Of a stretch of DNA of 29,578 nucleotides, positions 547 to 28,535 are shown one piece after another (position 1 is the stretch's first letter; each line of letters opens with the position of its first letter). Source of the stretch: a virus. The stretch lies in IMG/VR virus record IMGVR_UViG_3300043446_002609, positions 1 through 29,578 of that record. One strand, given 5' to 3'. The notes under the pieces were generated by a model. That model saw only the letters and a list, made by a program, of their open reading frames with translations. It was not told where the DNA came from and searched no databases. The position numbers and the translations under genes were made by a program.

Positions 547-1059
547 CTACTTCAACCAATACCAAACGTCATGCTGCGCTGTCATTATATTTCGATTGAC
601 CGAAAATGCAAACTCATTGACTGCTTTATTCACTGCAGGAATGGTATTATAGTCGTGTCCTGAAAATAATCCACCAGGTTTAATTTTTGAATAGTAATTT
701 TCACAGTCTTTCTTTACCTGCTCATAGGTATGAAGACCATCAATAAAGATAAAGTCTAATGATTCATTTTCGAATTGTGATATTGCATTATCAGAATAAT
801 CTCGAATCAATACAAATCTATTCGAATATGAAGATAGTCTTTCTTTAGTTTTATGAAAAAGATTTGGTCGATCATTCAATTGATTGCCATTCCAATCCAA
901 GTATTCCACATAAGGATCTATTGATATCAATCTAAGATTAGGATTCGAAGATAGTAAAAATATAGATGTATCTCCTTCACTGCATCCTATTTCCAATCCT
1001 ACAGGATTGATTTTATCTTTTAATAATTCGGCCAACCCATATCCTGAGCAATTTATCAT
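547..1059 (-). CDS. Class I SAM-dependent methyltransferase
   Basis: This 170-aa protein has a Rossmann methyltransferase signature: motif I GLEIGCSEGDTS (about residues 21-32), an acidic end of strand 2 (SIDPY, about 46-50), FIFIDGLHTYE (about 100-110) and a post-motif KPGGLFSGHDY. This is the Methyltransf_24-like pattern seen in small methyltransferases of glycan clusters in bacteria and phages. The acceptor is unknown; a sugar or glycan is likely from the neighbouring glycosyltransferases. Its ATG follows the stop of the upstream gene by 1 nt, so the two are probably translationally coupled. No Shine-Dalgarno sequence is visible. Confidence 0.8.
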   Translation of the reverse strand: MINCSGYGLAELLKDKINPVGLEIGCSEGDTSIFLLSSNPNLRLISIDPYVEYLDWNGNQLNDRPNLFHKTKERLSSYSNRFVLIRDYSDNAISQFENESLDFIFIDGLHTYEQVKKDCENYYSKIKPGGLFSGHDYNTIPAVNKAVNEFAFSVNRNIMTAQHDVWYWLK

Positions 1060-1060
1060 A

Positions 1061-1735
1061 TCAATAGTATTCTATTTTTCCATGACCAGCTACAAATCCA
1101 TATCCACCCAACGTGTCAAGCTCAATTAGATATTCTTTATTCATATTGACGAAATGCGCATGTTCAGCATCTAATCCAGAATTGAATGAATTAAAGTTTT
1201 TTATCAATATTTCCATATAATCATCGACTAAAGATACACACATTGAATAGAATCGTGTTGTTAAAGAATAAGATGCATCTAAAATAGGTGGTGACATCCA
1301 TGTTGGAACTCTTTTAGCAAAGACGTATTTTCCTTTTTTCTCATGCGCATTTATATTAAACTCATCGGTTAACATAGATCGACAAGACATTTTGAAAATA
1401 CGATCATATTCAGACAATACGAGATTATTTTTTACAAATATCAAAGCTTTATGCAGCATTAAAGTTTCGGCATGACTTTTTAGACCTGCAGATGATAATT
1501 TTTTCATATCATCATCGTTACTCAAATCCATAAAAAAGTGACAGCGTTTTCGAACTTGTTCTAATTCAGAAAATGAATTTTCTGATAATGACATATCACA
1601 CACCATAATAGTGGCATTAGGAACTCTATATAATAAACAGTCTAGGCATGCAATTGTTTGTTCATACCTTTCCAAAAAACTATATGCGCCAATTTTTGGC
1701 TTAAGTGCAGATGTTACGATAAAAAGAGAACGCAT
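1061..1735 (-). CDS. Putative glycosyltransferase-like protein of the glycan cluster
   Basis: This 224-aa protein is not clearly recognised. The N terminus (RSLFIVTSALKP) looks like the first strand of a nucleotide-sugar fold. The segment YDRIFKMSCRSMLTDEF (about residues 109-125) resembles the K-(I/M)-SGRY-L-D type motif of a group of viral and bacterial glycosyltransferase-like proteins, but here the GRY core is CRS. There is no obvious DxD metal site. It sits between the HtrL/YibB-like gene (4-nt gap) and the methyltransferase (1-nt gap), which supports a role in the same glycan pathway. It is AT-rich compared with the head genes. The function is inferred mainly from context. Confidence 0.5.
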   Translation of the reverse strand: MRSLFIVTSALKPKIGAYSFLERYEQTIACLDCLLYRVPNATIMVCDMSLSENSFSELEQVRKRCHFFMDLSNDDDMKKLSSAGLKSHAETLMLHKALIFVKNNLVLSEYDRIFKMSCRSMLTDEFNINAHEKKGKYVFAKRVPTWMSPPILDASYSLTTRFYSMCVSLVDDYMEILIKNFNSFNSGLDAEHAHFVNMNKEYLIELDTLGGYGFVAGHGKIEYY

Positions 1736-1739
1736 TTTA

Positions 1740-2504
1740 TCAAATTTGATTTAATTGTTCAAACCAATTTCCAAGCTTCAGTTTGAATAGATTTGGCTCA
1801 ATAAGATATGCCATATTATATATGGTCTGATCATCATCGATTAGATTCATATTCAATGACTTATCGATGACGTCGGATACCAATTGTTTGAATTCGCAAA
1901 TCGACTTCTTGGTACCTATAAAAGTGCTTCCTGTTATGAATACTTCATTACTAAAATATGACCATGGATGATATAGCATTTCAGGAATCGGATACCGTAA
2001 GCATCCCATATACAGCTTATCACCTTGAGTCATATCCTTAAGCATTGACTCCATATCACCGGATATATCTATCTTTCCATGACCAAACCCAAAATCGATC
2101 CATCCATATAGCGAAGTATTAAAATACTGTATAGAATCGACGACGAATGCGGCTTTATTAAAGTTAATGATATTATATTCAGGGAAAATCATTTCTGGTA
2201 TATGATGATGAATGATTTGGCGTCTAAATGCATCACTCATCATTACAGACTTCGTTCGATCGAAAAATGTTTTATGGTATTCAAGTTGTTCGAATGGTAT
2301 AGTGATAATATGAGTTTTCTTATTATTTGATCTAATTCGTGAGATTATCTCTTTATGCGCTTGATCACAATAGATAACCATATTACCTTGAAATTTGGAA
2401 ATCTTTTCAAAGTAATGCATATAGTCTTCAATTGTGCGCTTAAATGAAGGCCATCGACCACGACCTATGTCATAGAATGCGGTTGCTAGGGTGATGTCAT
2501 TCAT
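1740..2504 (-). CDS. HtrL/YibB-like (WlaTC-type) protein, putative glycosyltransferase
   Basis: This 254-aa protein opens with TLATAFYDIGRGRWPSF, the characteristic start of the HtrL/YibB family (also called WlaTC/HtrL). Later it has YGWIDFGFGH and a downstream DDDQTIYN segment, which fit the family's conserved W-I-D and D-Q positions. Members occur in LPS and capsule loci and in T4-like phage glycan clusters, and are thought to act as sugar transferases, though the reaction is not established. It overlaps the end of the upstream glycosyltransferase gene by 8 nt. Of two close ATGs the first is used; the second lies two codons on. Confidence 0.75.
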   Translation of the reverse strand: MNDITLATAFYDIGRGRWPSFKRTIEDYMHYFEKISKFQGNMVIYCDQAHKEIISRIRSNNKKTHIITIPFEQLEYHKTFFDRTKSVMMSDAFRRQIIHHHIPEMIFPEYNIINFNKAAFVVDSIQYFNTSLYGWIDFGFGHGKIDISGDMESMLKDMTQGDKLYMGCLRYPIPEMLYHPWSYFSNEVFITGSTFIGTKKSICEFKQLVSDVIDKSLNMNLIDDDQTIYNMAYLIEPNLFKLKLGNWFEQLNQI

Positions 2505-3288
2505 ATATCAAAGCTTTGATCCGATCGATCCTATCATATTGATGAATAATGGGTATCACGACATCGTCAATCATAGGAAGACCATTTTCATCCCATGTAG
2601 GCTTCTCGGTCAACTTATTCCTAAACTTTTGAACGCCGACCGTACCAAGGTGAACCATTAGTCCATCGGAAGGTCGAGTCGTGACTATCCTTTCATTGCC
2701 AAATGTCGTACCCATCAGTATGTTGAACGACGACTGATCCGATACACTGGCCGGATTGTGATAGCACATCGTGAATAGCATCAGACATAGTTCGGCTATC
2801 GACTTTACATCTCCACAGAGGACTCCGACGTTGCATATCTCATGGGCTTTATACTCTTCATAGACGTATGAGAAGCCTTCCATCAAATTACCATTGCCCC
2901 ATGATTCATCCTGATATGCAATGCACTCACTCCCACAGACGATACTCTTACCATGCTTTTGCATCAAGAGTTCGATCAAAGGGAATGGATCCGAATGAAA
3001 ATATACATCCTTACTATCCGTAAGAACGACATGCGAATACCTATCGACAATCGACATAAGGTACTTATATTGTAGTAGGAATCTAAGATTATGTGGTGGC
3101 TTATTTGTATTCTGTATGGAGTATGACACATAGTCCACACCATTAGATGCACACGAATCAATCAAAGTCTTGGTCGGATTCATGAAGATATTACAGACGT
3201 CATGACCGGTTTTCTTGGCCGATAGGTTCCATGATTTCACATGATCCCACTCATAGCCGGCCGAGGATGATAAGAATAGTTTCTTCAT
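2497..3288 (-). CDS. Glycosyltransferase-like protein (GT-A type)
   Basis: This 263-aa protein shows features of nucleotide-diphospho-sugar transferases: KYLMSIVDRYSHVVLTDSKDVYF (shown in parts: VVLTDSKDVYF, about residues 86-96) has a D-x-x-D metal-binding look. NVGVLCGD (about 153-160) and SDQSSFN (about 183-189) match the N-x-G and D-Q-x-x-x-N positions of GT-A enzymes that transfer sugars to glycans. The start ATG overlaps the TGA of a 34-codon reading frame upstream (ATGA). Donor and acceptor are unknown. The likely role is modification of the phage surface or the host envelope, but that is inference. Confidence 0.65.
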   Translation of the reverse strand: MKKLFLSSSAGYEWDHVKSWNLSAKKTGHDVCNIFMNPTKTLIDSCASNGVDYVSYSIQNTNKPPHNLRFLLQYKYLMSIVDRYSHVVLTDSKDVYFHSDPFPLIELLMQKHGKSIVCGSECIAYQDESWGNGNLMEGFSYVYEEYKAHEICNVGVLCGDVKSIAELCLMLFTMCYHNPASVSDQSSFNILMGTTFGNERIVTTRPSDGLMVHLGTVGVQKFRNKLTEKPTWDENGLPMIDDVVIPIIHQYDRIDRIKALIYE

Positions 3289-3389
3289 TTGGTTTCAATA
3301 TAATTCATAATAAAGTCTTTGACGATTTGCTTTCCATTCTTTATCCATACATCTGATTTGAATCCTGTGAATGGATCAATATCTATCAT
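3285..3389 (-). CDS. Very short reading frame (34 aa), small gene or remnant
   Basis: ATG at 3389 opens 34 codons (MIDIDPFTGFKSDVWIKNGK and on, ending in IETK). The TGA overlaps the ATG of the next gene as ATGA, the kind of coupling seen elsewhere in this cluster. Protein-like composition and the perfect junction favour a real product or the intact C-terminal end of a decayed gene. The same frame stays open upstream into the end of the 3406-4101 glycosyltransferase, so it could also be the tail of a frame-disrupted gene. No family is recognised. Confidence 0.4.
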   Translation of the reverse strand: MIDIDPFTGFKSDVWIKNGKQIVKDFIMNYIETK

Positions 3390-3405
3390 ACTTTGTCGAA
3401 GATTA

Positions 3406-4101
3406 TCATTTATAGTACTTCTCAGCAACCGGTAATCCATCCGGGCCGTTCACAAATTGAATAGCTTCCGGTGGAGGAATCTTACCATATCCAAGATAGT
3501 GAACCGCAAATTTAGTCATATAATTAAGGGTCGGTTTCTCAGATCGTGCTATGTGTTGCTTAGGTAGATTTGCCCAAAATATTCGATCTCCAATAATGCC
3601 ATACTTACGCTCTTTGAATGTCCACACTCCTATGAATTGAAAGGCTGGTCGTGCAATTAGGTAACAGTTCGTATCACAAAAGCTAATACCATCGGATTCC
3701 AGATCATCGGCGATGAATTCCCCTTGTAGATCTCTAAGCTTTCGAGCTGTCGTAACGATGGGAGTTTGATCCGTAACCTTGCTTAAAGCTTGCTCGATAT
3801 GATCAGCTTCATACCAGCAATCCGCGTCAAGAAAGCAAATGGCATCGAATCCATTAGCCGAAGCTACGGCGGAACCGATGGCTCGAGGAGTATCCCCATA
3901 GTCTCCACAGTTGGGAATCTTAAAATGCCAAATCTTTCCAGACTTCACGTCCGGATGATTTAACACATAGTCAGAAGGAAATCCATCAGAAACCAAAATA
4001 TGCGTAATATTTGTGTATGTTTGTTTGGCTACGGAGTCTATGCATCTTTTGAGAAGATAACGGCCTTCACTATAGTACGGTGTTATGACTGCAACTTTCA
4101 T
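3406..4101 (-). CDS. Family 2 glycosyltransferase
   Basis: This product of about 231 aa begins KVAVITPYYSEGRYLLKRC, the N-terminal strand and helix of GT2 (GT-A fold) enzymes, followed by SVAKQTYTN and ILVSDG. The metal-binding motif is in FLDADCWYE (D-A-D, about residues 111-119). It should transfer a sugar from a nucleotide donor. The ATG at 4101 is preferred over an in-frame GTG at 4116, which would overlap the upstream PrimPol-like gene; with it the intergenic gap is 4 nt. The gene marks the right end of the glycan cluster, next to replication genes. Confidence 0.8.
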   Translation of the reverse strand: MKVAVITPYYSEGRYLLKRCIDSVAKQTYTNITHILVSDGFPSDYVLNHPDVKSGKIWHFKIPNCGDYGDTPRAIGSAVASANGFDAICFLDADCWYEADHIEQALSKVTDQTPIVTTARKLRDLQGEFIADDLESDGISFCDTNCYLIARPAFQFIGVWTFKERKYGIIGDRIFWANLPKQHIARSEKPTLNYMTKFAVHYLGYGKIPPPEAIQFVNGPDGLPVAEKYYK

Positions 4102-4105
4102 AATT

Positions 4106-5056
4106 TTATTTACCACTTCTTAAAGTAAAAGTTATAGCACGCGCAGCTTCGGTTTCCATTTCACGATTTTTATACCATGATCCAGTGTCTCGATCAAGCT
4201 CTCGGCAAAGATTTGCGATCTCTTGAGCCGTAATCGGATATCCTTTGCGTATTGCACTCGCCGCAATTGAGACCATAATCTGATACATCTTGTTATACCA
4301 TCCGGTCGACGATATCATTCTATATTCATTTATCAGATGTCTTTTGATAAATGGACAATTGCGATATGAGTTCCAAGAATACTTATGCTTGTTGGTAAGT
4401 TGACTCTTTTGATACTTCTCAATAGACTTTTGCACATGCTCTGGTAAATTTGCCAGAATACCAGTATTGACTTTCTCAACGTATGGATGTTTTGACATCA
4501 ACTCAATCGGATTCAGAATTGGCGCATCTTGATGCGAGAAGATGAAGTTATATGCATCTGGATATTGAGCCGGAACATAATACATACGAGAAAGATCTTT
4601 GGTCTGAGGATCAGCCAATGACTTGAATTCTTTGTTCAAAGCATACCAGAAATGGCGAATCTTCTCGGCAGGTACAGAACACGTAAGAGGAAGGACCACT
4701 CGAAACTTTGGATGTTCTTTCTTCGAAGAAGCCGATGAGTAGCAAACATGCCGATATGATCGAAAGATAGCCTTGGCATCTTCAAATCCTCCTATCGGAT
4801 AATCGTCGACATCGATCGCGGCCCATCCAGCCCAGCATTCTACATTTGCATTAGCCCGCGTTGTCTGACTTTTGAATGTAGCCGGTGTGATAAGAGGAGA
4901 AGCCTTGGAATTATACTTCTCATCCTTTTTGGGCTTATATCCCGGGACTTTAGATAACTGAAACAGCAATGCTTCAAATTGATCAAATGAATCAAACTCC
5001 ATTCGACGATGTGTCTTATTATCGAATATGGATTTGAATATAGTTCCGGCAATCAT
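4106..5056 (-). CDS. PrimPol-type (archaeo-eukaryotic primase superfamily) protein
   Basis: This 316-aa protein carries the signature of the AEP/PrimPol nucleotidyltransferase fold. AAIDVDDYP (residues 79-87) supplies the acidic metal pair (D82, D84). SSASSKKEHPKFRVVLPL (about 107-124) matches the S...H-P-x-x-R region of phage and plasmid primase-polymerases, and DLSRMYYVPA (154-163) matches their D-x-S-R...P motif. The C-terminal part (about 190-316) is helical and has no helicase Walker motifs, so this is a stand-alone form. T4 itself primes with the DnaG-type gp61, so this would be an additional or alternative primase. The neighbours are the MazG-like gene and, across 4 nt, a glycosyltransferase. 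Confidence 0.7.
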   Translation of the reverse strand: MIAGTIFKSIFDNKTHRRMEFDSFDQFEALLFQLSKVPGYKPKKDEKYNSKASPLITPATFKSQTTRANANVECWAGWAAIDVDDYPIGGFEDAKAIFRSYRHVCYSSASSKKEHPKFRVVLPLTCSVPAEKIRHFWYALNKEFKSLADPQTKDLSRMYYVPAQYPDAYNFIFSHQDAPILNPIELMSKHPYVEKVNTGILANLPEHVQKSIEKYQKSQLTNKHKYSWNSYRNCPFIKRHLINEYRMISSTGWYNKMYQIMVSIAASAIRKGYPITAQEIANLCRELDRDTGSWYKNREMETEAARAITFTLRSGK

Positions 5057-5101: not shown

Positions 5102-5515
5102 TTATTCTTCAAAGGCTTTGGAAATGATTCCATGATTTCCGGCATGAGATGGAGCTTGCCATCCATCCGGCTTAATCAGATCTGGCAAGCCAAATGGATT
5201 TGGCCGTGAAGCCTTGATTCCTACTCGCTTATTCATATTGGCCTTGAGCACTTCATCCCAGGCTTTTTGTGCGTCGATTCCATAAGCATCCAATGTACCG
5301 ATAGCTACGACACAAAGGTCAATCAGCGAGTCAACGATCTCTTCTGAATTGCGATCTACAATAGCATTCTTTCCTTCGTTCAATTCTTCTTGCAAGAAGT
5401 TGAAACGAAAGATTAGATATGCTTTTAGTTTTTCAGCATCCAGTTTACTTACGGCTTCTTTGACGCCATAATGCTGATGCATATCAGCAATGTCTTGATT
5501 CCAGTTTAGGCTCAT
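5102..5515 (-). CDS. MazG-like all-alpha nucleotide pyrophosphohydrolase
   Basis: This 137-aa protein fits the all-alpha NTP pyrophosphohydrolase superfamily (MazG, dUTPase and PRA-PH-like). FRFNFLQEELNEG (about 37-49) gives the first E-E-x-x-E helix and EEIVDSLIDLCVVAIGTL (about 58-75) gives the second metal-binding helix with the E/D-x-x-D pattern. The DEVLKANMNK segment is also typical of phage members. Such enzymes hydrolyse nucleoside triphosphates to monophosphates and PPi; the substrate here cannot be read from sequence. Aquatic T4-like phages often carry a MazG. It is 4 nt from the next gene upstream and lies in the polymerase neighbourhood. Confidence 0.75.
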   Translation of the reverse strand: MSLNWNQDIADMHQHYGVKEAVSKLDAEKLKAYLIFRFNFLQEELNEGKNAIVDRNSEEIVDSLIDLCVVAIGTLDAYGIDAQKAWDEVLKANMNKRVGIKASRPNPFGLPDLIKPDGWQAPSHAGNHGIISKAFEE

Positions 5516-5749: not shown

Positions 5750-5983
5750 CTATTCAATTGTTCCAATCAATTTATCATCTTTAGATGTTACGGTGACGTT
5801 TATGCATTTTCCTTTCATGACACATCGAGGTTGAACTTTTCTGTGATGAGTATAGCAAGGAACATTGCATATGATATGATCGACAATATAACATGCATTA
5901 TTCCAATGAATAGACATCTTAGATGTGCCACTTCTTTGAGATGCAGGTTTATTATAGTGAAAGAAAAAGATTTTAGTTTTCAT
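5750..5983 (-). CDS. Small Cys/His-containing phage protein, unknown function
   Basis: This 77-aa protein starts KTKIFFFHYNKPASQ and contains CYIVDHIICNVPCYTHHRK, with conserved-looking cysteines and histidines but no spaced CxxC pairs of a standard zinc ribbon. Similar small proteins (FFFHYNKPAS opening, then an H-x-N and IVD segment) recur in phage genomes without assigned function. The ATG overlaps the gp43 stop codon (ATGA), so it is probably translated by coupling to the polymerase. I do not assign a role. Confidence 0.6.
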   Translation of the reverse strand: MKTKIFFFHYNKPASQRSGTSKMSIHWNNACYIVDHIICNVPCYTHHRKVQPRCVMKGKCINVTVTSKDDKLIGTIE

Positions 5984-8541
5984 GAGAAAAAGCTTTCAAG
6001 CGAGCCAACATCCTCTGTTGTCCAACCAATAGATTTGATAATTATGTCTAAGGGCTCCAGAAATGTTTTTTGAAATTGAGTATCATAATCAACATAATTA
6101 TGCAATTCGAATTCCACTGGTAGATCAGATGCGGCCGGAAACGATATCACGTTTTCTTGAATTGGATTTGGTTTCTTAAGATAGATAAAACGAATCTTAT
6201 CACCAGATTGAATCTGTTTGTATTTTGATTGAAGACCTTTGGTTTCAATTATATGATTATATAGCAACGCGCCCCGTGAATGAATTGGTGTGCCTTTCTG
6301 ATAAATGGTCGGCTTAGAGCTCCATCCATCGACATCCGTCACGCCACGAGGAAAGGCGACTTCACGTGGATTTAGGCTTGAGAATCGCAAACGGAATTCC
6401 TCGATTGCCTGCTGAGTCTTGATCTTATCACCAGTCATGATGATCTTGAACATGCGCTTCATCTCTGATCTGCATACGGCCGGAGTTGAAGACTTGATAG
6501 CCTCAATACCCATCATCTTAAGTTTAGGTTCCGAGTATCGAACGCCCTCATTGTCGAGTACGTTTAGAATATACCGTTTCTTGGCCGTCCATACGGCGCG
6601 ATCGGCGATAGCCTCACGCTTCATTACCATGCGATTCACATAGGCATAGGTCGTTTTGGCAAGCTTATCAAATGCCGCATTAAGCTCAAGACCAATGCCT
6701 TTTTCATAGAACTCATCGAGGAAAGCAATTGTATCCTTGGGCTTAAACTTATCCACGATATCCTTCAGGCATACATACACGGAATCCGTATCAACCGCCA
6801 GCACTCGATCCTTGATCTCCGATTCGCCGACCATCTTGGACACATAACGATTCACGGTCGCTTCGGCCAGACGTATGGCCGTCTGACCGGATAAAGTCAC
6901 GGCTTCAGCAACTTGAAGATTAAAGAAGCGGAAATATTTGTTGCCACAAGCCCCATAGAGACTATTGAGCAAGATCTTTACGGCCATCTGTTCCGTGTCG
7001 AGCTTGGCGATCGTCTTCTCGACCATGATGCGTTCAGCAGAATCCTTTGATAGTGACTCGAGCTTCTTCTTATGAGTACCAGCCTGCTTTTTCACCTTCA
7101 CGCGGCGTTCATACAGCTCTTCGACCAGCTGAGGAATAATGCCTTTAATGTCCTTACGAAAGCAAGCACCATTCGCGGCCACGCATACCTCTGGATCCTG
7201 ATCAAAGAGAGGCTGATTATTCAGCACTCGATCAATGATCAAATCAGGATTCACGTCCATGCTCATACGATCGATGTACGTCTCCGGTGACATGTTATAT
7301 TGCACGATAAGGTTTGGATACTCCGAATTGACATCCGATGAGAGCACCCACTCATGCATACCTTCCTGAACCTCCTTGACATAACCACCGGCGAATTGAG
7401 GAACATGTGATGGAGGTTCCGATTGAAATGGAACAATTGTGTTCTTATTCGACAGCTTGCGAAAGATGATCGAATCCCAGATTGCCGTGGTTCCAAGAGT
7501 GTCCGTATAGTTCACGCCACCCATATAAGCCATCATAAGGACGAGCTGAATCAATCCAAGCTTTTCCTCCAGACGATCTACAAGTTCCACGTCACGGATA
7601 TTATAGTCAATGAACTTTTGATGATCTACATAGTATAGATCATCGAGCGTACCATCGTACTCCACCTTGCCCTCATCGAGGACGACCTTGGCAATGTGAT
7701 CGAGCGTGTACTGTTCTTGTGCTCCATATGTGTAACCAAACTTCTGAAAAAGATCCATGTAGTCGAGCTGCTGAATACCAACAAGCTCGTACATTGTCTG
7801 CATTCTACCTTTGAGCTTGACCTCTTTGGATTCAATGATGTTCCATGGACTCAGAACTCGAGAAGCTTCCTCACCGCCTAACTTGATCAGACGATTGATC
7901 AAATATGGAATATCAAAGGCTCGAGTGTTCCAGCCAGTGATGATGTCCGGTGAATTGTCCGGATGAATCCACCAGCGCAGAAAATCCTCGAGCATCTGAC
8001 CCTCGGTCTTAAACTGACGATAGTCAATCGTATATCGACTCGTAAGAGCGATCGAGGGATCATATGGCTTAAGCCCCCATGTATGGCATGTGTTGTCGGT
8101 CGAACACTTGACCGTTATTGCGATGATAGGATTCTTAGCTTCGGAAGCATCTGAATATCCCCATGCTTCTTTGCGGATTTCAATATCGAGTGTGCATATT
8201 CGAATCAATGATTGCTGATATTGAATTGAAAGAGGAAACTGTGAGTAGATGAATGCTGGAATATGCCGATCATTGCCATAGATCTTAAATGAAGGAACAT
8301 CTTTATATGTCTCTACGAATTTACGAGAGTCCGACATAGAGTCAAACACCATAGGTTCAACCGGAGTACCATCGAGTCCCTTGAATTTGGCCTTTGACGA
8401 ATCTTTGGCTTCCAGATAGAATGTAGGGCGATATCTGATCTTTTCTTGAATACGCTGACCATTCCGATCATATCCTCTTACGAGGAGCATATTCATATTC
8501 CTAGCAATGCTGGTGTAAAAAGCTAAATTCAGTTTGGCCAT
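5980..8541 (-). CDS. 43: DNA polymerase gp43, family B with 3'-5' exonuclease
   Basis: This protein of about 853 aa is the replicative polymerase. Exonuclease motifs are present: Exo I TLDIEIRKEA (about residue 115), Exo II GWNTRAFDIPYL and Exo III YNIRDVELVDRL. Polymerase motif A is SDVNSEYPNLI (about 400), motif B KILLNSLYGACGN (about 525) and motif C AVDTDSVYV (about 584), all with their acidic or aromatic key residues. Motif A reads SEYP where T4 and RB69 have SLYP. The ATG at 8541 (MAKLNLAFYTSI) is chosen over an in-frame TTG 6 codons upstream, because T4-type polymerases begin here. Length is close to T4 gp43 (898 aa). A strong terminator separates it from hsp20 upstream, so it needs its own promoter, which I could not identify. 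Confidence 0.97.
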   Translation of the reverse strand: MAKLNLAFYTSIARNMNMLLVRGYDRNGQRIQEKIRYRPTFYLEAKDSSKAKFKGLDGTPVEPMVFDSMSDSRKFVETYKDVPSFKIYGNDRHIPAFIYSQFPLSIQYQQSLIRICTLDIEIRKEAWGYSDASEAKNPIIAITVKCSTDNTCHTWGLKPYDPSIALTSRYTIDYRQFKTEGQMLEDFLRWWIHPDNSPDIITGWNTRAFDIPYLINRLIKLGGEEASRVLSPWNIIESKEVKLKGRMQTMYELVGIQQLDYMDLFQKFGYTYGAQEQYTLDHIAKVVLDEGKVEYDGTLDDLYYVDHQKFIDYNIRDVELVDRLEEKLGLIQLVLMMAYMGGVNYTDTLGTTAIWDSIIFRKLSNKNTIVPFQSEPPSHVPQFAGGYVKEVQEGMHEWVLSSDVNSEYPNLIVQYNMSPETYIDRMSMDVNPDLIIDRVLNNQPLFDQDPEVCVAANGACFRKDIKGIIPQLVEELYERRVKVKKQAGTHKKKLESLSKDSAERIMVEKTIAKLDTEQMAVKILLNSLYGACGNKYFRFFNLQVAEAVTLSGQTAIRLAEATVNRYVSKMVGESEIKDRVLAVDTDSVYVCLKDIVDKFKPKDTIAFLDEFYEKGIGLELNAAFDKLAKTTYAYVNRMVMKREAIADRAVWTAKKRYILNVLDNEGVRYSEPKLKMMGIEAIKSSTPAVCRSEMKRMFKIIMTGDKIKTQQAIEEFRLRFSSLNPREVAFPRGVTDVDGWSSKPTIYQKGTPIHSRGALLYNHIIETKGLQSKYKQIQSGDKIRFIYLKKPNPIQENVISFPAASDLPVEFELHNYVDYDTQFQKTFLEPLDIIIKSIGWTTEDVGSLESFFS

Positions 8542-8562
8542 GTCATGATAATATATCAAAAG

Positions 8563-8629: not shown

Positions 8630-9070
8630 TTAATCCTTAAGGCATTGCTTATCCGCATTGATCGCAATCTTCTTGGGCTTAAGCGCCTCAGGAATATTGT
8701 GAACGAGCTTGATGCGAAGAATGCCATCAATCAAGTCCGCTGATTTTACTTCAACATTCTCAGCCAGAATAAACTTACGACAGAAGTCGCGAGTCGAGAT
8801 TCCTTTATGAAGCTGCGTTGATGCCGTAAGGGCCGTCTTAGTACCCGAAATAAGAAGCTCACCCTTTTGAACTTCAATATCCAGCTCATTTTGTTTCCAA
8901 CCAGCAAGGGCCAGTTCGATCTCATAATCAACATCCGAGACCTTAAGAATGTTGTATGGAGGATATCCCTCTGAATGAGCCGATGAGTTTTTCCATGGTT
9001 CCTGTTCAATGAGATCAAAGATGTCATTGAATCCGATGAAGTGCCGACGAGGCAGTGCTAATGATAGCAT
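8630..9070 (-). CDS. hsp20: Small heat shock protein Hsp20 (alpha-crystallin family)
   Basis: This 146-aa protein has an alpha-crystallin domain: YEIELALAGWKQNELDIEV (about 49-67) and GELLISG, followed by ISTRDFCRKFILAENVEV and a DGILRIKLVHNIPE strand. The C-terminal tail has an I-x-I-type motif (KKIAI) used for oligomer assembly. It should hold unfolding proteins in an ATP-independent way. Hsp20 is a common gene of T4-like cyanophages. It is preceded by a CATAAATA late octamer and a structured leader of about 100 nt, and is the only gene here with a clear Shine-Dalgarno sequence (AAAGGA, 6 nt from ATG). A strong terminator follows. Confidence 0.93.
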   Translation of the reverse strand: MLSLALPRRHFIGFNDIFDLIEQEPWKNSSAHSEGYPPYNILKVSDVDYEIELALAGWKQNELDIEVQKGELLISGTKTALTASTQLHKGISTRDFCRKFILAENVEVKSADLIDGILRIKLVHNIPEALKPKKIAINADKQCLKD

Positions 9071-9181: not shown

Positions 9182-10423
9182 TCAGGTAGGCGACGTACCA
9201 CTACTTTTTTTCGAAACATTAGAGTCTAATTGCTTGCCATACGTAGCAAAGGCATTCGAATTATCCTGCATTCGCTTTACAACTCCAAGATTCTCTCCAC
9301 TCTTAAATTCATCATGATTGAGATATTCTTTAGATGCTTCAATCCACTTATTAGCCTTCATCAATCGAATAGTTTTTGGAGAAGCCGTAGGACCTAAATC
9401 ACCGCGGTACCATCCGGACATGATAGCATTCTTAAGATATTGAGGATAGCTATTATAGCTAGGAAGTGCTTTTTGTATCTGCAATTCACGTTTGCTAATA
9501 TCTTGACGAAGCAAAGCTATAGCCTCTTGATCCGTAATTCCCTTCGAAAAATCTTCTCCAGCCTGAAGCTTATGACCATAGGCTATCGTATCCGTGCCAC
9601 CTTCAAGGCTCTTATGAGGATACCATTTCTTCACTTTAGAGTCATATCCACCCTTAGGATTGTCCTTGGAGTTCTCATATGACATTAATAGCTGTTCCAT
9701 AGATACGTTAGAAATAGTCTGAGGCTTAGCCTCCGGTTTAATCTGATAATCTGCGGCCGTACGTATCACCTTGGTCAAAGGAACCTTGATATCTGCTTTT
9801 GAGGCTGCCATACCCTTCATGGTGGCCAAACCCATCATTCCAGCCGTGGCCAGTGATCTCCAGTCCTCTTCCAGCGCGTTTTCATCTTCAAGAGGGGTAA
9901 TATATTGCTTTAGCTGTTCAATGGTCTGATCCGCATTCCTGTGAAGGATTCCAATCCCTCCTGCATCTCTCCAGGCCTTAATATTGTCTTTTAGATCATC
10001 TATAAGAATCCGATTAGGCGCAGACCATCTATCTTTATCTGGCCCTTTATTGGCCATGATAACCTCAATAGATGGACCAAGTTCTCTCTTGCACCAAAGC
10101 TGTTTACCTATAACGGCCTTGTCGCCAATCAAAGAAGTAGCCGCGGCCGTAAGAATTTTAGGATTTTTATCTTCAATGAAATTCCAAAGCTTTTTGCCAT
10201 CAGAAAGCCATTTAAGATTAGCCCACCATTCCAATCCTTCCATGCCAATTCGACGCCAGACTTCCTTTAAGCCATAATGCTCAACGGCCGCATCATATAA
10301 TCGGCCATCCGTGAGTTCTTTGAAAGAAGTATTGAAGTCGACAAGAACACCATCCATGTCACAGTAGATCTCTACTCTAGAAATAGCAGGTGAATTGACA
10401 GTACTCTTCTTATCCGAATGCAT
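9182..10423 (-). CDS. HAD-family domain fused to a lysozyme (muramidase) domain
   Basis: This 413-aa protein has two domains. Residues about 15-175 are a HAD phosphatase of the 5'(3')-deoxyribonucleotidase type: motif I YCDMDGVLVDF (D22, D24), a LTAAAT segment (91-96) and the acidic motif IV ILIDDLKDN (D142, D143). Residues about 240-400 resemble phage lysozymes: a catalytic-type glutamate in MSYENS (E250), KKWYPHKSLEGG, and DTIAYGHKL (278-286), which matches the T-I-G-Y-G-H box of GH24-like enzymes. An Ala/Met-rich linker (about 190-215) joins them. A late octamer 9 nt upstream of the ATG points to late expression, fitting a virion or lysis function for the second domain. The HAD role and the substrates are unknown. 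Confidence 0.78.
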   Translation of the reverse strand: MHSDKKSTVNSPAISRVEIYCDMDGVLVDFNTSFKELTDGRLYDAAVEHYGLKEVWRRIGMEGLEWWANLKWLSDGKKLWNFIEDKNPKILTAAATSLIGDKAVIGKQLWCKRELGPSIEVIMANKGPDKDRWSAPNRILIDDLKDNIKAWRDAGGIGILHRNADQTIEQLKQYITPLEDENALEEDWRSLATAGMMGLATMKGMAASKADIKVPLTKVIRTAADYQIKPEAKPQTISNVSMEQLLMSYENSKDNPKGGYDSKVKKWYPHKSLEGGTDTIAYGHKLQAGEDFSKGITDQEAIALLRQDISKRELQIQKALPSYNSYPQYLKNAIMSGWYRGDLGPTASPKTIRLMKANKWIEASKEYLNHDEFKSGENLGVVKRMQDNSNAFATYGKQLDSNVSKKSSGTSPT

Positions 10424-10432
10424 TACAAATTC

Positions 10433-10440
10433 TATTTATA
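10433..10440 (-). promoter_or_regulatory. Late promoter octamer (TATAAATA) for HAD-lysozyme gene
   Basis: A perfect TATAAATA stands 9 nt before the ATG at 10423 and overlaps the C-terminal codons region just past the regA stop. With a T4-type spacing the mRNA would have a leader of only about 4 nt. Confidence 0.7.
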
Positions 10441-10447
10441 TCGAAGC

Positions 10448-10915
10448 CTATTTGGATTTTTTAATATTCCCGATCTGATATTTTGGAATCAACTTCCATT
10501 GATTCTTATCTTTATGGGAAATGATCTTGATGTTTTTGAGAGACGATTTTGCGGTAATTGAAGCCGGCTTTACTATATGCAAAAGACCCCAATCAGAAAG
10601 CAATTGAGCAATCGTATTACGCCGGCCAAGATCATCCATTGAAAAATCAGAAGGCTTTCCATCGAGCATAAACATCTCTTTGAAATGCACGATAAAATAA
10701 TATCCGCGCTTATGAAGTAGATGACAAGATTGATATAGTGTATTGACTTCCTTCTTGGAAGCCACACCTATACGAGTCAGCGTTTCACGGACTTTAAGAA
10801 AATCATCGGGCTCATTTAGAGTGATCTCGAGCATGTCCTGAGGGGACCATGGCGCAAGAGTTTGCGACGAATTGCCGTTAGGGTCAGAAGGATGAAATGT
10901 ATTTGAATTGATCAT
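10448..10915 (-). CDS. regA: RegA translational repressor
   Basis: From residue 28 the protein follows T4 RegA closely: MLEITLNEPDDFLKVRETL, then TLYQSCHLLHKRGYYFIVHF, a KEMFMLDG segment, RRNTIAQLLSDWGLLHIV and WKLIPKYQIGN at the end. RegA binds the initiation regions of early phage mRNAs and represses their translation, including its own in T4. This copy (155 aa, T4 has 122) has a 27-residue extension rich in N, S and P. The ATG at 10915 is kept because the frame is open and a late octamer lies just upstream; the internal ATG at 10834 would give the standard length. Neither has a good Shine-Dalgarno sequence. Confidence 0.93.
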   Translation of the reverse strand: MINSNTFHPSDPNGNSSQTLAPWSPQDMLEITLNEPDDFLKVRETLTRIGVASKKEVNTLYQSCHLLHKRGYYFIVHFKEMFMLDGKPSDFSMDDLGRRNTIAQLLSDWGLLHIVKPASITAKSSLKNIKIISHKDKNQWKLIPKYQIGNIKKSK

Positions 10916-10957: not shown

Positions 10958-11365
10958 TCAATCTCGACCACCGTATTCCAGTCGATCTTGCAGAGCCTTT
11001 AGCTGCTCCTCGGTCAGAAGAGGAAGCACCTGACGAGCCTTCTCGGTCGAGTAGCCATATACGGCCTTAATCAAATCGATCGAGTCAGGACGTTCATTCT
11101 TGAGCCACTTCGAGAATCTTTTACGTGGACGAATGGACTTGCGAAGAAACTCATATTGAGCACGCACAGGTATATCATACCTACGATTCATCTCGTTGGC
11201 AAACAATACCGTATCCGAAAACCAGCTTAAGCCCCTATTGACCATAAAGGGCAAATAAAACTTCTCCTCAAACGAGGGATCCGCAAACATATCCTTGCCG
11301 CGGGCTCCCTCGTTGATAGAGTTCAGACAGTCGAAGAATGACGGCTTTTTGGGTTTTATTTCCAT
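10958..11365 (-). CDS. 62: Clamp loader small subunit gp62
   Basis: This product of about 135 aa lies directly after gp44, the invariant position of gene 62, and has segments such as FADPSFEEKFYLPFMVNRGL, the SWFSDTVLFANEMNRRY helix and RKRFSKWLKN that fit gp62 of T4-like phages (KFMVNxxLS, and YGKWAK in T4). With gp44 it loads the gp45 clamp onto DNA. The ATG at 11365 overlaps the gp44 stop by 10 nt, which suits coupled translation; an alternative ATG at 11395 would add 10 residues and a 40-nt overlap. It is shorter than T4 gp62 (187 aa). Confidence 0.82.
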   Translation of the reverse strand: MEIKPKKPSFFDCLNSINEGARGKDMFADPSFEEKFYLPFMVNRGLSWFSDTVLFANEMNRRYDIPVRAQYEFLRKSIRPRKRFSKWLKNERPDSIDLIKAVYGYSTEKARQVLPLLTEEQLKALQDRLEYGGRD

Positions 11366-12315
11366 TCGATATTGCACATGAGCTCGGTCAGACAAGCCAC
11401 AGTGTTTAATTCTTTATCAGCCACAAACGAATTCTTATATTGATAGTCGGCCAATGTAACGATGGCCTGCGGCACGGATTGAGGTTGAGCGATATCCGTG
11501 ATGCAGTCATAGATCGATCTATAGATCTGTGCCGGATCGACATCATTACTTGAGACCACCCATGCCCGCATAGCACGGAAATCTTTTTCCTTTAACGTTT
11601 TGATTAGAGCCTGTACTCCGGAATCAGACAGTCCGACAATGGCATTCGCCGTGATTTCACCAGAAGACGAATGCCGTTGACATTCATTGATGACACGCCG
11701 CCAGTCCGGTGCATGCTTAATAATCAATTCGGCAAGAACCTGATCTGTATATTTGATCTTCTCAATATCCAGAATCTTCTTGAGTCGTGTATGAAACTGA
11801 CCAGCCAGACCAACCAGCTCCTTCTTTGAAGCATTGAACTCCACAACCGCGAGCCGAGAATGGAGCGGCTCAATGATACGATTTTTGAAGTTACATGTCA
11901 GAATAAATCGACAATTGGCCGAGAACTCCTCAATGAATGCACGAAGTGCCGGTTGTGTGGACTGAGCATTCAAATAATCGGCTTCATCAAGAATGACAAC
12001 CTTATACGATCCTGTACCATCCAGAGATATAGTCGAAGCGAATTGCTTGATCTTATTTCGAAGCACATCGATACCAGATTCCTCTGAACCGTTGATCAAA
12101 ATATGATCAAGCTTAAGCATCGAGCATAATGCTCTGGCAACAGTAGTCTTGCCTAAACCGGCCGTGCCGGTAAAAAGCATATTCTGCAGTTGACCGGTTT
12201 TTACAATCTCAGTCAATGTTTTCTTCAAAGAGACTGGAAGAATGCATTCGTCAATAGTCTGTGGACGGTACTTCTCGACAAATAAAAATTCTTTATTGTT
12301 GGGATGTATGTTCAT
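11356..12315 (-). CDS. 44: Clamp loader large subunit gp44 (AAA+ ATPase)
   Basis: This 319-aa protein has the same length as T4 gp44. It starts with FLFVEKYRPQTIDECILP, the usual clamp loader opening (EKYRPxT). Walker A is in FTGTAGLGKTTVARAL (about 49-64) and Walker B in VVILDEADYL (about 106-115). The arginine-finger region reads HSRLAVVEF (the SRC box, with L for C). Four copies with one gp62 form the ATP-driven loader of gp45. A Lar-like gene lies 11 nt upstream, and gp62 overlaps the end. No Shine-Dalgarno sequence precedes the ATG (context TCGAATGAAC). Confidence 0.95.
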   Translation of the reverse strand: MNIHPNNKEFLFVEKYRPQTIDECILPVSLKKTLTEIVKTGQLQNMLFTGTAGLGKTTVARALCSMLKLDHILINGSEESGIDVLRNKIKQFASTISLDGTGSYKVVILDEADYLNAQSTQPALRAFIEEFSANCRFILTCNFKNRIIEPLHSRLAVVEFNASKKELVGLAGQFHTRLKKILDIEKIKYTDQVLAELIIKHAPDWRRVINECQRHSSSGEITANAIVGLSDSGVQALIKTLKEKDFRAMRAWVVSSNDVDPAQIYRSIYDCITDIAQPQSVPQAIVTLADYQYKNSFVADKELNTVACLTELMCNIEWK

Positions 12316-12822: not shown

Positions 12823-13494
12823 TTAAATCGTTGAACTTTTTTCCAATGCTATAAAATAGGTTAATGCAAATTCCGCATGTGTCCATTGAGATATCAATTT
12901 AGAAGAGATCTCAACATTATAGTTTCCAGAAAACAACTTAAGATTGTCAATCAAAAACTCGAGTGAGAACTCTTTGTTTAGTGTATGCTTTTCTGAAAGC
13001 TCTATGTTATATGTATTAGCCGAAGCGTCTTTCGGGTCTAAAACCGACAAACTTAAATTACCATCAGCCGTACCCTTTAGAGCCATGACCGAATGACCAA
13101 GGACGGAAGCGGCTTTGCGGATTTGATTCAGTGTGTTGCTGGTGATAGCAAGTTTGATATCCGTCGATGGCATCTTAATCTCCTTCTGAGGAGTAGTAAG
13201 CACGGAAGGATTGGCAAAACGGTATTTGACCTTTGCCGAATCCGTCGATAGCACGGCCATATCATCGAGCAATTCAATATTGGCATCTTCCAAAAGGCCC
13301 ATGGCGGAAATGAATTCATTCAGATCATATACGCCAAATGTCTTCGAAAACGTTTCAGGCACTTGAACCGTAGCCATGATATTCTTGGCTTCGGCGATTG
13401 TAGAAAACGTCGAGCCTTCTTTGATGACCAGATTAGGATTGATTGACGCAAAATTTTTCAATACGTCAACCGTGAATTTAGATAGTTTAAGCAT
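12823..13494 (-). CDS. 45: Sliding clamp gp45
   Basis: This 223-aa protein (T4 gp45: 228 aa) starts KLSKFTVDVLKNFASINPNL, the typical gp45 opening, and keeps VPETFSKTFGVYDLNEFIS and the EFSLEFLIDNLKLFSGNYNVEIS region near the C terminus. It forms a trimeric ring that tethers gp43 and, in T4, also acts with gp55 and gp33 as the coactivator of late transcription. The next genes downstream are the GroES-like, Lar-like, gp44 and gp62 genes with very short gaps, so a single operon is likely. No Shine-Dalgarno sequence is visible. Confidence 0.94.
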   Translation of the reverse strand: MLKLSKFTVDVLKNFASINPNLVIKEGSTFSTIAEAKNIMATVQVPETFSKTFGVYDLNEFISAMGLLEDANIELLDDMAVLSTDSAKVKYRFANPSVLTTPQKEIKMPSTDIKLAITSNTLNQIRKAASVLGHSVMALKGTADGNLSLSVLDPKDASANTYNIELSEKHTLNKEFSLEFLIDNLKLFSGNYNVEISSKLISQWTHAEFALTYFIALEKSSTI

Positions 13495-24034: not shown

Positions 24035-24042
24035 TATTTATA
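24035..24042 (-). promoter_or_regulatory. Late promoter octamer (TATAAATA) for uvsY
   Basis: A perfect octamer 15 nt before the uvsY ATG. It directly follows the U tract of the terminator at 24051-24080, so termination of one late unit and initiation of the next occupy under 50 bp. Confidence 0.72.
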
Positions 24043-24405: not shown

Positions 24406-24413
24406 TATTTATA
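24406..24413 (-). promoter_or_regulatory. Late promoter octamer (TATAAATA) for the 95-aa gene
   Basis: A perfect octamer 13 nt upstream of the ATG at 24392, in the short gap after the tail tube gene. Confidence 0.72.
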
Positions 24414-24904: not shown

Positions 24905-24912
24905 TATTTATA
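24905..24912 (-). promoter_or_regulatory. Late promoter octamer (TATAAATA) for the tail tube gene
   Basis: A perfect octamer 6 nt before the ATG at 24898. It abuts the U tract of the gp23 terminator. The predicted start would leave a leader of about 1 nt. Confidence 0.75.
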
Positions 24913-27872: not shown

Positions 27873-28535
27873 TTACACGCTGATGTCCTTAAGGAACTCC
27901 GCAAAGGCTTTAACCTGCGCTTCAGCGTAAAATTCTTTGGATTTAGTTGAACGAGCTTGTTTAAGCTGTTCATTCATCTTATCCACCTTATTGGCAACAT
28001 AGGTCTTACCATTAAAGACCCAATCAACCGATTCCATGATACCTTCAACAAAAGCAGAAGGTGCCGATGGATCTTGCACAATATCAACCGTAGCCAGACT
28101 ATAATCCGGCTTGACATATGTCTTACCACCGCGGGATTCAACGGAACCCATACCGCGGCTCGAAACACCAAGCTTGACACCACCATCAAGCAGACCTTTG
28201 ACAATCTGTCCCATCGGCGTATTAAGGATCAAAGCCTTGCCATGGACATCATTGCCATTCCATTTAAGCTCCGTGATACGATGGCTCACTTTATCCAGAT
28301 TGATGGTCGGACCATCCGGATGATTTAGCTCACCGACCGCGCGGCCAGTGGTAACCTGCTCGGCTACAAATCGGCTCACGGCATCTTGAAGAACCGCGCG
28401 AGGATAGATACGATTATTCCGATTTTGCTTTTCGGCCTGCAGAAATACACCTTCCAAGAAGTACTTCTTCTCGTTTCCAGCGTTTTCGATAAGAGGGGAC
28501 AAGCCACTCTCATTATACTCGCATATCAATTTCAT
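27873..28535 (-). CDS. 21: Prohead protease gp21
   Basis: This 220-aa protein (T4 gp21: 212 aa) has the herpesvirus-assemblin-like catalytic residues of the T4 protease: His in VGELNHPDGP (about residue 71), Ser in LGVSSRGMG (about 123-131) and an acidic VDIVQDPSAP segment. It matures the prohead by cutting gp22, gp23 and other core proteins after (L/I)-x-E. It is preceded by the small core protein gene (1-nt gap) and followed by gp22, the T4 order. No Shine-Dalgarno sequence (GAATAATATG). Confidence 0.96.
   Translation of the reverse strand: MKLICEYNESGLSPLIENAGNEKKYFLEGVFLQAEKQNRNNRIYPRAVLQDAVSRFVAEQVTTGRAVGELNHPDGPTINLDKVSHRITELKWNGNDVHGKALILNTPMGQIVKGLLDGGVKLGVSSRGMGSVESRGGKTYVKPDYSLATVDIVQDPSAPSAFVEGIMESVDWVFNGKTYVANKVDKMNEQLKQARSTKSKEFYAEAQVKAFAEFLKDISV

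Follow-up and report, generated by a model that had tools for sequence, protein, structure and literature searches.

A deoxyribonucleotidase-type HAD domain joined to a T4-lysozyme-fold domain in a T4-like phage gene slot: a candidate small polyvalent protein

Introduction

Which role could place a phosphatase-type domain and a cell wall hydrolase on the same phage polypeptide? The question is raised by a gene of the virus record IMGVR_UViG_3300043446_002609 (IMG/VR), of which the whole stretch of 29,578 nucleotides was analysed and is called the window below. An earlier note, made from the letters alone, had described a HAD nucleotidase-like domain and a phage lysozyme domain in a single open frame, with a late octamer directly upstream, and each of these elements was recovered. 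The encoded protein is predicted from profiles and from a structural model to carry a deoxyribonucleotidase-type HAD domain, a flexible linker and a T4-lysozyme-fold domain on one chain. It may represent a small phage-type polyvalent protein that is made late, packaged in the virion and injected, with the lysozyme acting at entry and the nucleotidase in the host cytoplasm, a reading to which we give an even chance of being right.

The gene and its genomic slot

The features of the gene and of its surroundings in the window are the following.

9182..10423, minus strand: whole gene, HAD-linker-GH24 fusion, 413 aa
9896..10384, minus strand: HAD domain of 5'(3')-deoxyribonucleotidase type, residues ~14-176 (PHROG 2643, structure match, motifs)
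9707..9895, minus strand: linker, residues 177-239 (pLDDT, hydropathy, alignment of relatives)
9239..9706, minus strand: GH24 domain of T4-lysozyme fold, residues 240-395 (PF00959, VIA-align, T4 lysozyme profile, alignment)
10433..10440, minus strand: late-promoter octamer TATAAATA, 9 nt before the ATG (octamer search)
10448..10915, minus strand: regA, upstream neighbour defining the slot (PF01818, E=1.1e-45)
8630..9070, minus strand: hsp20, downstream neighbour defining the slot (PF00011, E=5.9e-15)
5980-8559: polB, T4-like replication block
10958-11395: gp62, T4-like replication block
11356-12315: gp44, T4-like replication block
12823-13494: gp45, T4-like replication block
27873..28535, minus strand: gp21-like prohead protease, a speculative candidate for processing of the linker (PF03420, E=3.8e-39)

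The frame runs without internal stop, and its GC content is even (0.42 and 0.40 in the two halves, 0.42 in the whole window). Among the relatives of the gene, designated by the L number of their contig, regA lies upstream wherever that side was read (L010, L012-L014, L153, L156, L158) and hsp20 lies downstream wherever that side was readable (L009, L010, L014, L153, L158). Farther from the fusion gene, the window encodes gp19, gp23 and the gp21-like prohead protease. Its gp23 is closest to that of Phage C48C1 (61%), followed by those of Stenotrophomonas phage DLP6, pelagiphages and cyanophages.

The octamer TATAAATA, the late-promoter element of T4-like phages, occurs at six sites in the window, all on the minus strand, for 1.6 expected, and none of 100 shuffled sequences reached six. 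The orthologous gene is likewise preceded by it, at a distance of 7-11 nt, in L009, L010, L153-155, L156 and L158; in L011-L014, the exact octamer was not found at this place. The recurrence of the octamer in front of the gene, in the window as in these relatives, suggests late synthesis. Four octamers of the window (10433-10440, 24905-24912, 24406-24413 and 24035-24042) stand only 6-15 nt before start codons, and the late messages may therefore have almost no leader.

A single gene rather than an assembly join

A domain pairing on a metagenomic contig that is found in none of the annotated phage records could result from two genes having been fused artificially during sequencing or assembly. 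This explanation, set beforehand as a test of the fusion, has a negligible probability. Indeed, a second contig (L002, IMGVR_UViG_3300046804_002797) differs by two silent bases over 3,000 aligned nt and encodes an identical fusion protein, and HAD+GH24 fusions with 55-60% identity occupy the same regA-hsp20 slot in seven further contigs (L009, L010, L014, L153-155, L156). These independent assemblies rule out a join of two genes. The relatives reach 395 aa in L010, 393 aa in L014, 736 aa in L009 and 834 aa in L153-155, the copy of L156 being cut by the contig end.

The earlier note knew of no established protein with this pairing. This still holds for the 50,697 annotated phage records, none of which has HAD and GH24 on one protein, and a HAD-lysozyme pairing was not found in literature searches either. 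The kind of protein is known, namely that of polyvalent proteins discussed below, and the same architecture does exist elsewhere, in L002 and in the seven further contigs, together with versions in which one domain is swapped. In a scan of a viral genome collection with the window protein as single query, the near-identical L002 was the only match. A bacterial genome collection gave no match in the same type of scan, nor did bacterial genomes yield a relative when scanned by alignment, so that no lead to a prophage or a host emerged. None of the defence-system profiles matched the window protein.

The HAD domain

The first half of the protein carries the motif I announced by the earlier note (D22-M-D24-G25-V26) as well as its acidic motif (I141-D142-D143). 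Residues 17-175 match PHROG 2643, a 5'-3' deoxyribonucleotidase family, with E=7e-23, and the only matches of a sequence profile search with this half were 5'(3')-deoxyribonucleotidases (best E 2e-4). An AlphaFold model, built from the window protein aligned with viral relatives (45 rows), has a mean pLDDT of 83.7 with both the HAD and lysozyme domains mostly above 90. Generic HADs came on top when the whole model was submitted to Foldseek, the informative ranking being that of VIA-align, in which the top rows for residues 14-176 are the deoxyribonucleotidases 3bwv (Z 15.1), 1mh9 and 1q92. The human mitochondrial and cytosolic deoxyribonucleotidases gave Z scores of 14.4-15.0. The window protein is not listed among the above-cut-off matches of the Pfam family NT5C (PF06941), and its relative in L010 scores 18.7 bits for a cut-off of 24.8.

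The window protein thus has in common with the NT5C/NT5M 5'(3')-deoxyribonucleotidases (PF06941; PHROG 2643; 3bwv, 1mh9) the fold (Z~15) and the HAD motifs, whereas it differs from the solved enzymes by an identity of only ~20% and by its fusion to a muralytic domain. Stand-alone homologues are encoded by the T4-like Pelagibacter phage HTVC008M and Methylophilales phage Melnitz, by Flavobacterium immuto phage outside the T4-like group, and by Phosso phage. An action on teichoic or lipid phosphate, as first proposed, is unsupported because the HAD half is nearest to deoxyribonucleoside-monophosphate nucleotidases and not to wall or lipid phosphatases.

HAD folds can lose activity, and the lysozyme is found with quite different N-terminal partners, so that the partner need not be catalytic. 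The HAD half could accordingly have a docking or structural function and position the lysozyme in the virion; a structural part had also been considered by the earlier note. This is quite improbable. Indeed, the four HAD motifs (DxDxV, T/S, K and DD) are complete in the window protein, as D22xD24, T92, K107 and D142-D143, which leaves a merely structural role unsupported. Across 25 diverse HAD relatives, the residues D22, D24, K107, D142 and D143 are invariant; in the HAD fusions, position 92 is always Thr or Ser (Thr in the window protein, Ser in some relatives). The predicted fold moreover matches active deoxyribonucleotidases, and close relatives of the domain exist as stand-alone phage proteins.

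The same HAD family was also seen at or near the C-terminus of phage proteins of 500-950 aa (L015, L016, L028, L040, L061, L075, L081, L277, L285). These carry an N-terminal nucleotidyltransferase-like GGGFKPPxxGH motif and an HExxH motif, with weak profile support only, and that of L061 gives a weak ART-PolyVal match.

The lysozyme domain

The C-terminal half was to be checked for a lysozyme fold, and this fold was found. Phage_lysozyme (PF00959) matches residues 274-383 with E=3.6e-6 and 27.8 bits, above the curated cut-off of 22.3. By VIA-align, residues 240-395 superpose onto residues 1-156 of T4 lysozyme with a Z score of 13.6 and an rmsd of 2.5 over 136 residues, and a sequence profile search with the second half retrieved T4 lysozymes (E 3e-7). 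A search for GH108 was uninformative, its control being without signal.

The E...DTIAYGH signature corresponds to E250 and D278-T-I-A-Y-G-H284. In an alignment with 19 relatives, E250 (E11 of T4 lysozyme) and T279 (T26) are invariant, the position of D20 is occupied by L273 in the window protein, and the adjoining E274 is invariant. Since the canonical position of D20 is a leucine, the domain is best regarded as an enzyme of T4-lysozyme fold in which the triad is altered or shifted. The fold and the catalytic Glu and Thr are common to T4 lysozyme and other GH24 members (PF00959), such as phage endolysins and gp5 tail lysozymes. Compared with T4 lysozyme, the domain has a longer catalytic loop (YPHKSLEGGTDTIAYGH) and is placed behind a HAD domain. 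Its nearest profiles include a baseplate hub/tail lysozyme (phrog_13211).

The linker and the endolysin alternative

Between both domains, an LEEDWR helix is followed by a weakly hydrophobic A/G/M-rich segment, LATAGMMGLATMKGMAA (residues 191-207), and then by a disordered stretch, residues 195-235 having a pLDDT below 50 in the AlphaFold model. This linker is common to the GH24 version of the gene and to versions with other domains described in the next section (SleB and InPase).

An endolysin would account for several of these features. The A/G-rich segment would then act as a signal-arrest-release (SAR) segment of a late GH24 protein, so that the lysozyme would reach the periplasm and the HAD half would stay in the cytoplasm for nucleotide salvage. 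The endolysin family PHROG 7 matches the GH24 half with E=1e-6, the SleB version matches the endolysin PHROGs 938, 15649 and 14642, the A/G-rich segment is retained across versions with different partners, and the late octamer stands upstream. The fusion is also the only GH24 found on the 95-kb contig L010 and the 118-kb contig L153. On these contigs, PF07486, SLT and M15_4 searches were empty as well, and the endolysin is kept as a possible, if distinctly less probable, explanation because no other endolysin was obtained there with these profiles and PF00959.

In SAR endolysins such as P1 Lyz and R of phage 21, GH24 lies behind an A/G-rich, weakly hydrophobic segment. However, this segment is N-terminal in those enzymes, whereas in the window protein it sits behind a folded enzyme domain of 176 residues, is interrupted by a Lys and is mostly disordered in the AlphaFold model. 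Its hydrophobic core is short (the best 17-mer has a KD of 1.04, with the Lys inside), and its acidic residues before and basic residues after give the wrong orientation for N-in. At its N-terminus the window protein has neither a signal nor a SAR segment, and the internal segment is weak. Finally, InPase and the other partners occurring in the same slot better fit injected polyvalent proteins.

Exchange of modules among relatives

The relatives of the gene differ by whole domains, of which the following could be located.

L012:3037-4149 and L013:677-1822: HAD+SleB-type version (PF07486)
L009:1963-4173: HAD+HAD+GH24 version of 736 aa, with a tandem duplication of the HAD-linker unit
L153:1672-2600 and L158:1033-1962: N-terminal domain of ~300 aa starting with MC..VK.FEK.GW.GAKNRDR, Ntn-type-hydrolase-like by eye

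L011-L013 retain HAD and the first part of the linker, and their C-terminal half is a SleB-type hydrolase (PF07486, E~1e-16), which has a different fold and the same target, the cell wall. An extra piece of ~85 aa separates the two HAD domains of L009, and in L153-155 the ~300-aa domain and this same piece precede HAD+GH24. Conversely, the linker and GH24 are kept in L158 (863 aa), where they come after the ~300-aa domain, InPase (PF18823, E=5e-41) and a different HAD. The ~300-aa domain has no support in Pfam or NCBIfam; its only matches, which are distant, come from two Chryseobacterium phages. In the regA-hsp20 slot the wall-cutting fold has been swapped while the nucleotidase was kept, and vice versa. 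That one wall-cutting fold could take the place of another with the nucleotidase unchanged speaks for selection on the pairing of HAD and wall hydrolase and against a chance association.

Away from this slot, other N-termini precede a similar linker and the GH24 half in L098, L159, L215, L223 and L185, and this half stands alone in L161, L176, L186 and L201.

Relation to polyvalent proteins

The main text of Iyer et al. 2017 (PMC5512222) applies the name of polyvalent proteins to phage and plasmid proteins in which domains with disparate activities are combined and for which delivery together with the DNA is predicted. According to that text, their parts include lysozyme, PF07486 and InPase, their wall hydrolases are supposed to help breach peptidoglycan at entry, more than 75% of them have only two or three domains, and a zincin peptidase is often present as a common theme that is not obligatory (PMC5512222).

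The window protein and its larger same-slot relatives each bring at least two disparate domains together on one phage polypeptide, and recombination with domains of the class is seen in the occurrence of InPase (PF18823) and PF07486 in the same slot. The group resembles the polyvalent proteins of the main text of PMC5512222 in its unrelated enzyme domains, its lysozyme, PF07486 and InPase modules and its mosaic exchange, as well as in the predominance there of two- and three-domain forms and in the late or virion gene context. The fusion is placed among phage polyvalent proteins because its same-slot relatives form a mosaic of interchangeable domains. It differs by its deoxyribonucleotidase-type HAD, neither HAD, a haloacid-type domain nor such a nucleotidase being mentioned in the main text of PMC5512222, and by the lack of a zincin, no peptidase domain having been found with Pfam and PHROG profiles or in the AlphaFold model. 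Since HAD is absent from that main text and the pairing from the literature searches, the partner looks new within a known class. With the fusion, the polyvalent theme would reach a core-gene slot of T4-like phages, and wall hydrolases would gain a HAD deoxyribonucleotidase among their partners.

Proposed role at entry

A virion enzyme, as suggested by the earlier note, is plausible. As a polyvalent protein, the fusion would be synthesized late, be incorporated into the new particle, probably its head, and enter the host together with the DNA, and the late octamer is compatible with such packaging. The lysozyme half would loosen peptidoglycan at entry, and the nucleotidase half would reach the cytoplasm and take phosphate off (deoxy)nucleoside monophosphates, whereby nucleotide pools might be adjusted for the first phage metabolism or nucleotide-based defence signals removed.

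The gp5 proteins of the phages of L010 and L153 (L306:1369-2313 and L307:997-1908) are complete, with 314 and 303 aa, and have an OB domain; a lysozyme domain was not found in them, and the fusion is the sole GH24 found on the contigs of both phages. The fusion lysozyme may therefore serve at entry, and the question arises whether such phages breach the wall by means of an enzyme that forms part of a multi-purpose protein. A fuller version, in which the tail-lysozyme function has moved from gp5 to a modular injected protein that pairs a swappable GH24 or SleB with a nucleotidase acting on host nucleotides, perhaps defence signals, and that is separated by the prohead protease, is unlikely.

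Packaging in the head is suggested indirectly, as stand-alone GH24 relatives and a Nudix-like protein share a peptide resembling a capsid-targeting sequence. The former start with the peptide MSIIKLKDLL...LIE/A, which ends in LxE/A and resembles a T4 capsid-targeting sequence. The latter (L232:1498-1890, Nudix-like by eye) starts with MIKLKDLLPES, in a genome that also encodes a stand-alone GH24 relative. The peptide M(S)(I)IKLKDLL..E was observed in this Nudix-like protein and in the unrelated GH24 proteins of L176, L186 and L201. The T4 internal head proteins Alt and IPI-III, with their capsid-targeting sequence and gp21 processing, suggest a delivery route for the window protein. In contrast to them, it lacks an N-terminal targeting peptide, whereas its stand-alone GH24 relatives have a similar one with the LxE/A end.

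The two halves could possibly be separated by the phage's own prohead protease at L184-E-E/D, at the HAD-linker junction, a weakly supported step. The motif L/I-x-E is that of gp21 cleavage following the T4 capsid-targeting sequence (PMC9026906), and a site of this type lies at the junction in every aligned HAD fusion. However, the idea is weakened by motif counts close to chance (two for 3.8 expected in the window protein) and by the five to seven motifs of the relatives, several of which are within domains.

Other observations

At 547-4116 of the window, genes resembling methyltransferase and glycosyltransferase types by eye lie near a MazG-like gene (5102-5515). In the genome of L215 (G105), a stand-alone SleB-type gene (104557-104892) is located ~6 kb from the linker+GH24 gene, and both types of wall hydrolase can therefore coexist in one phage.
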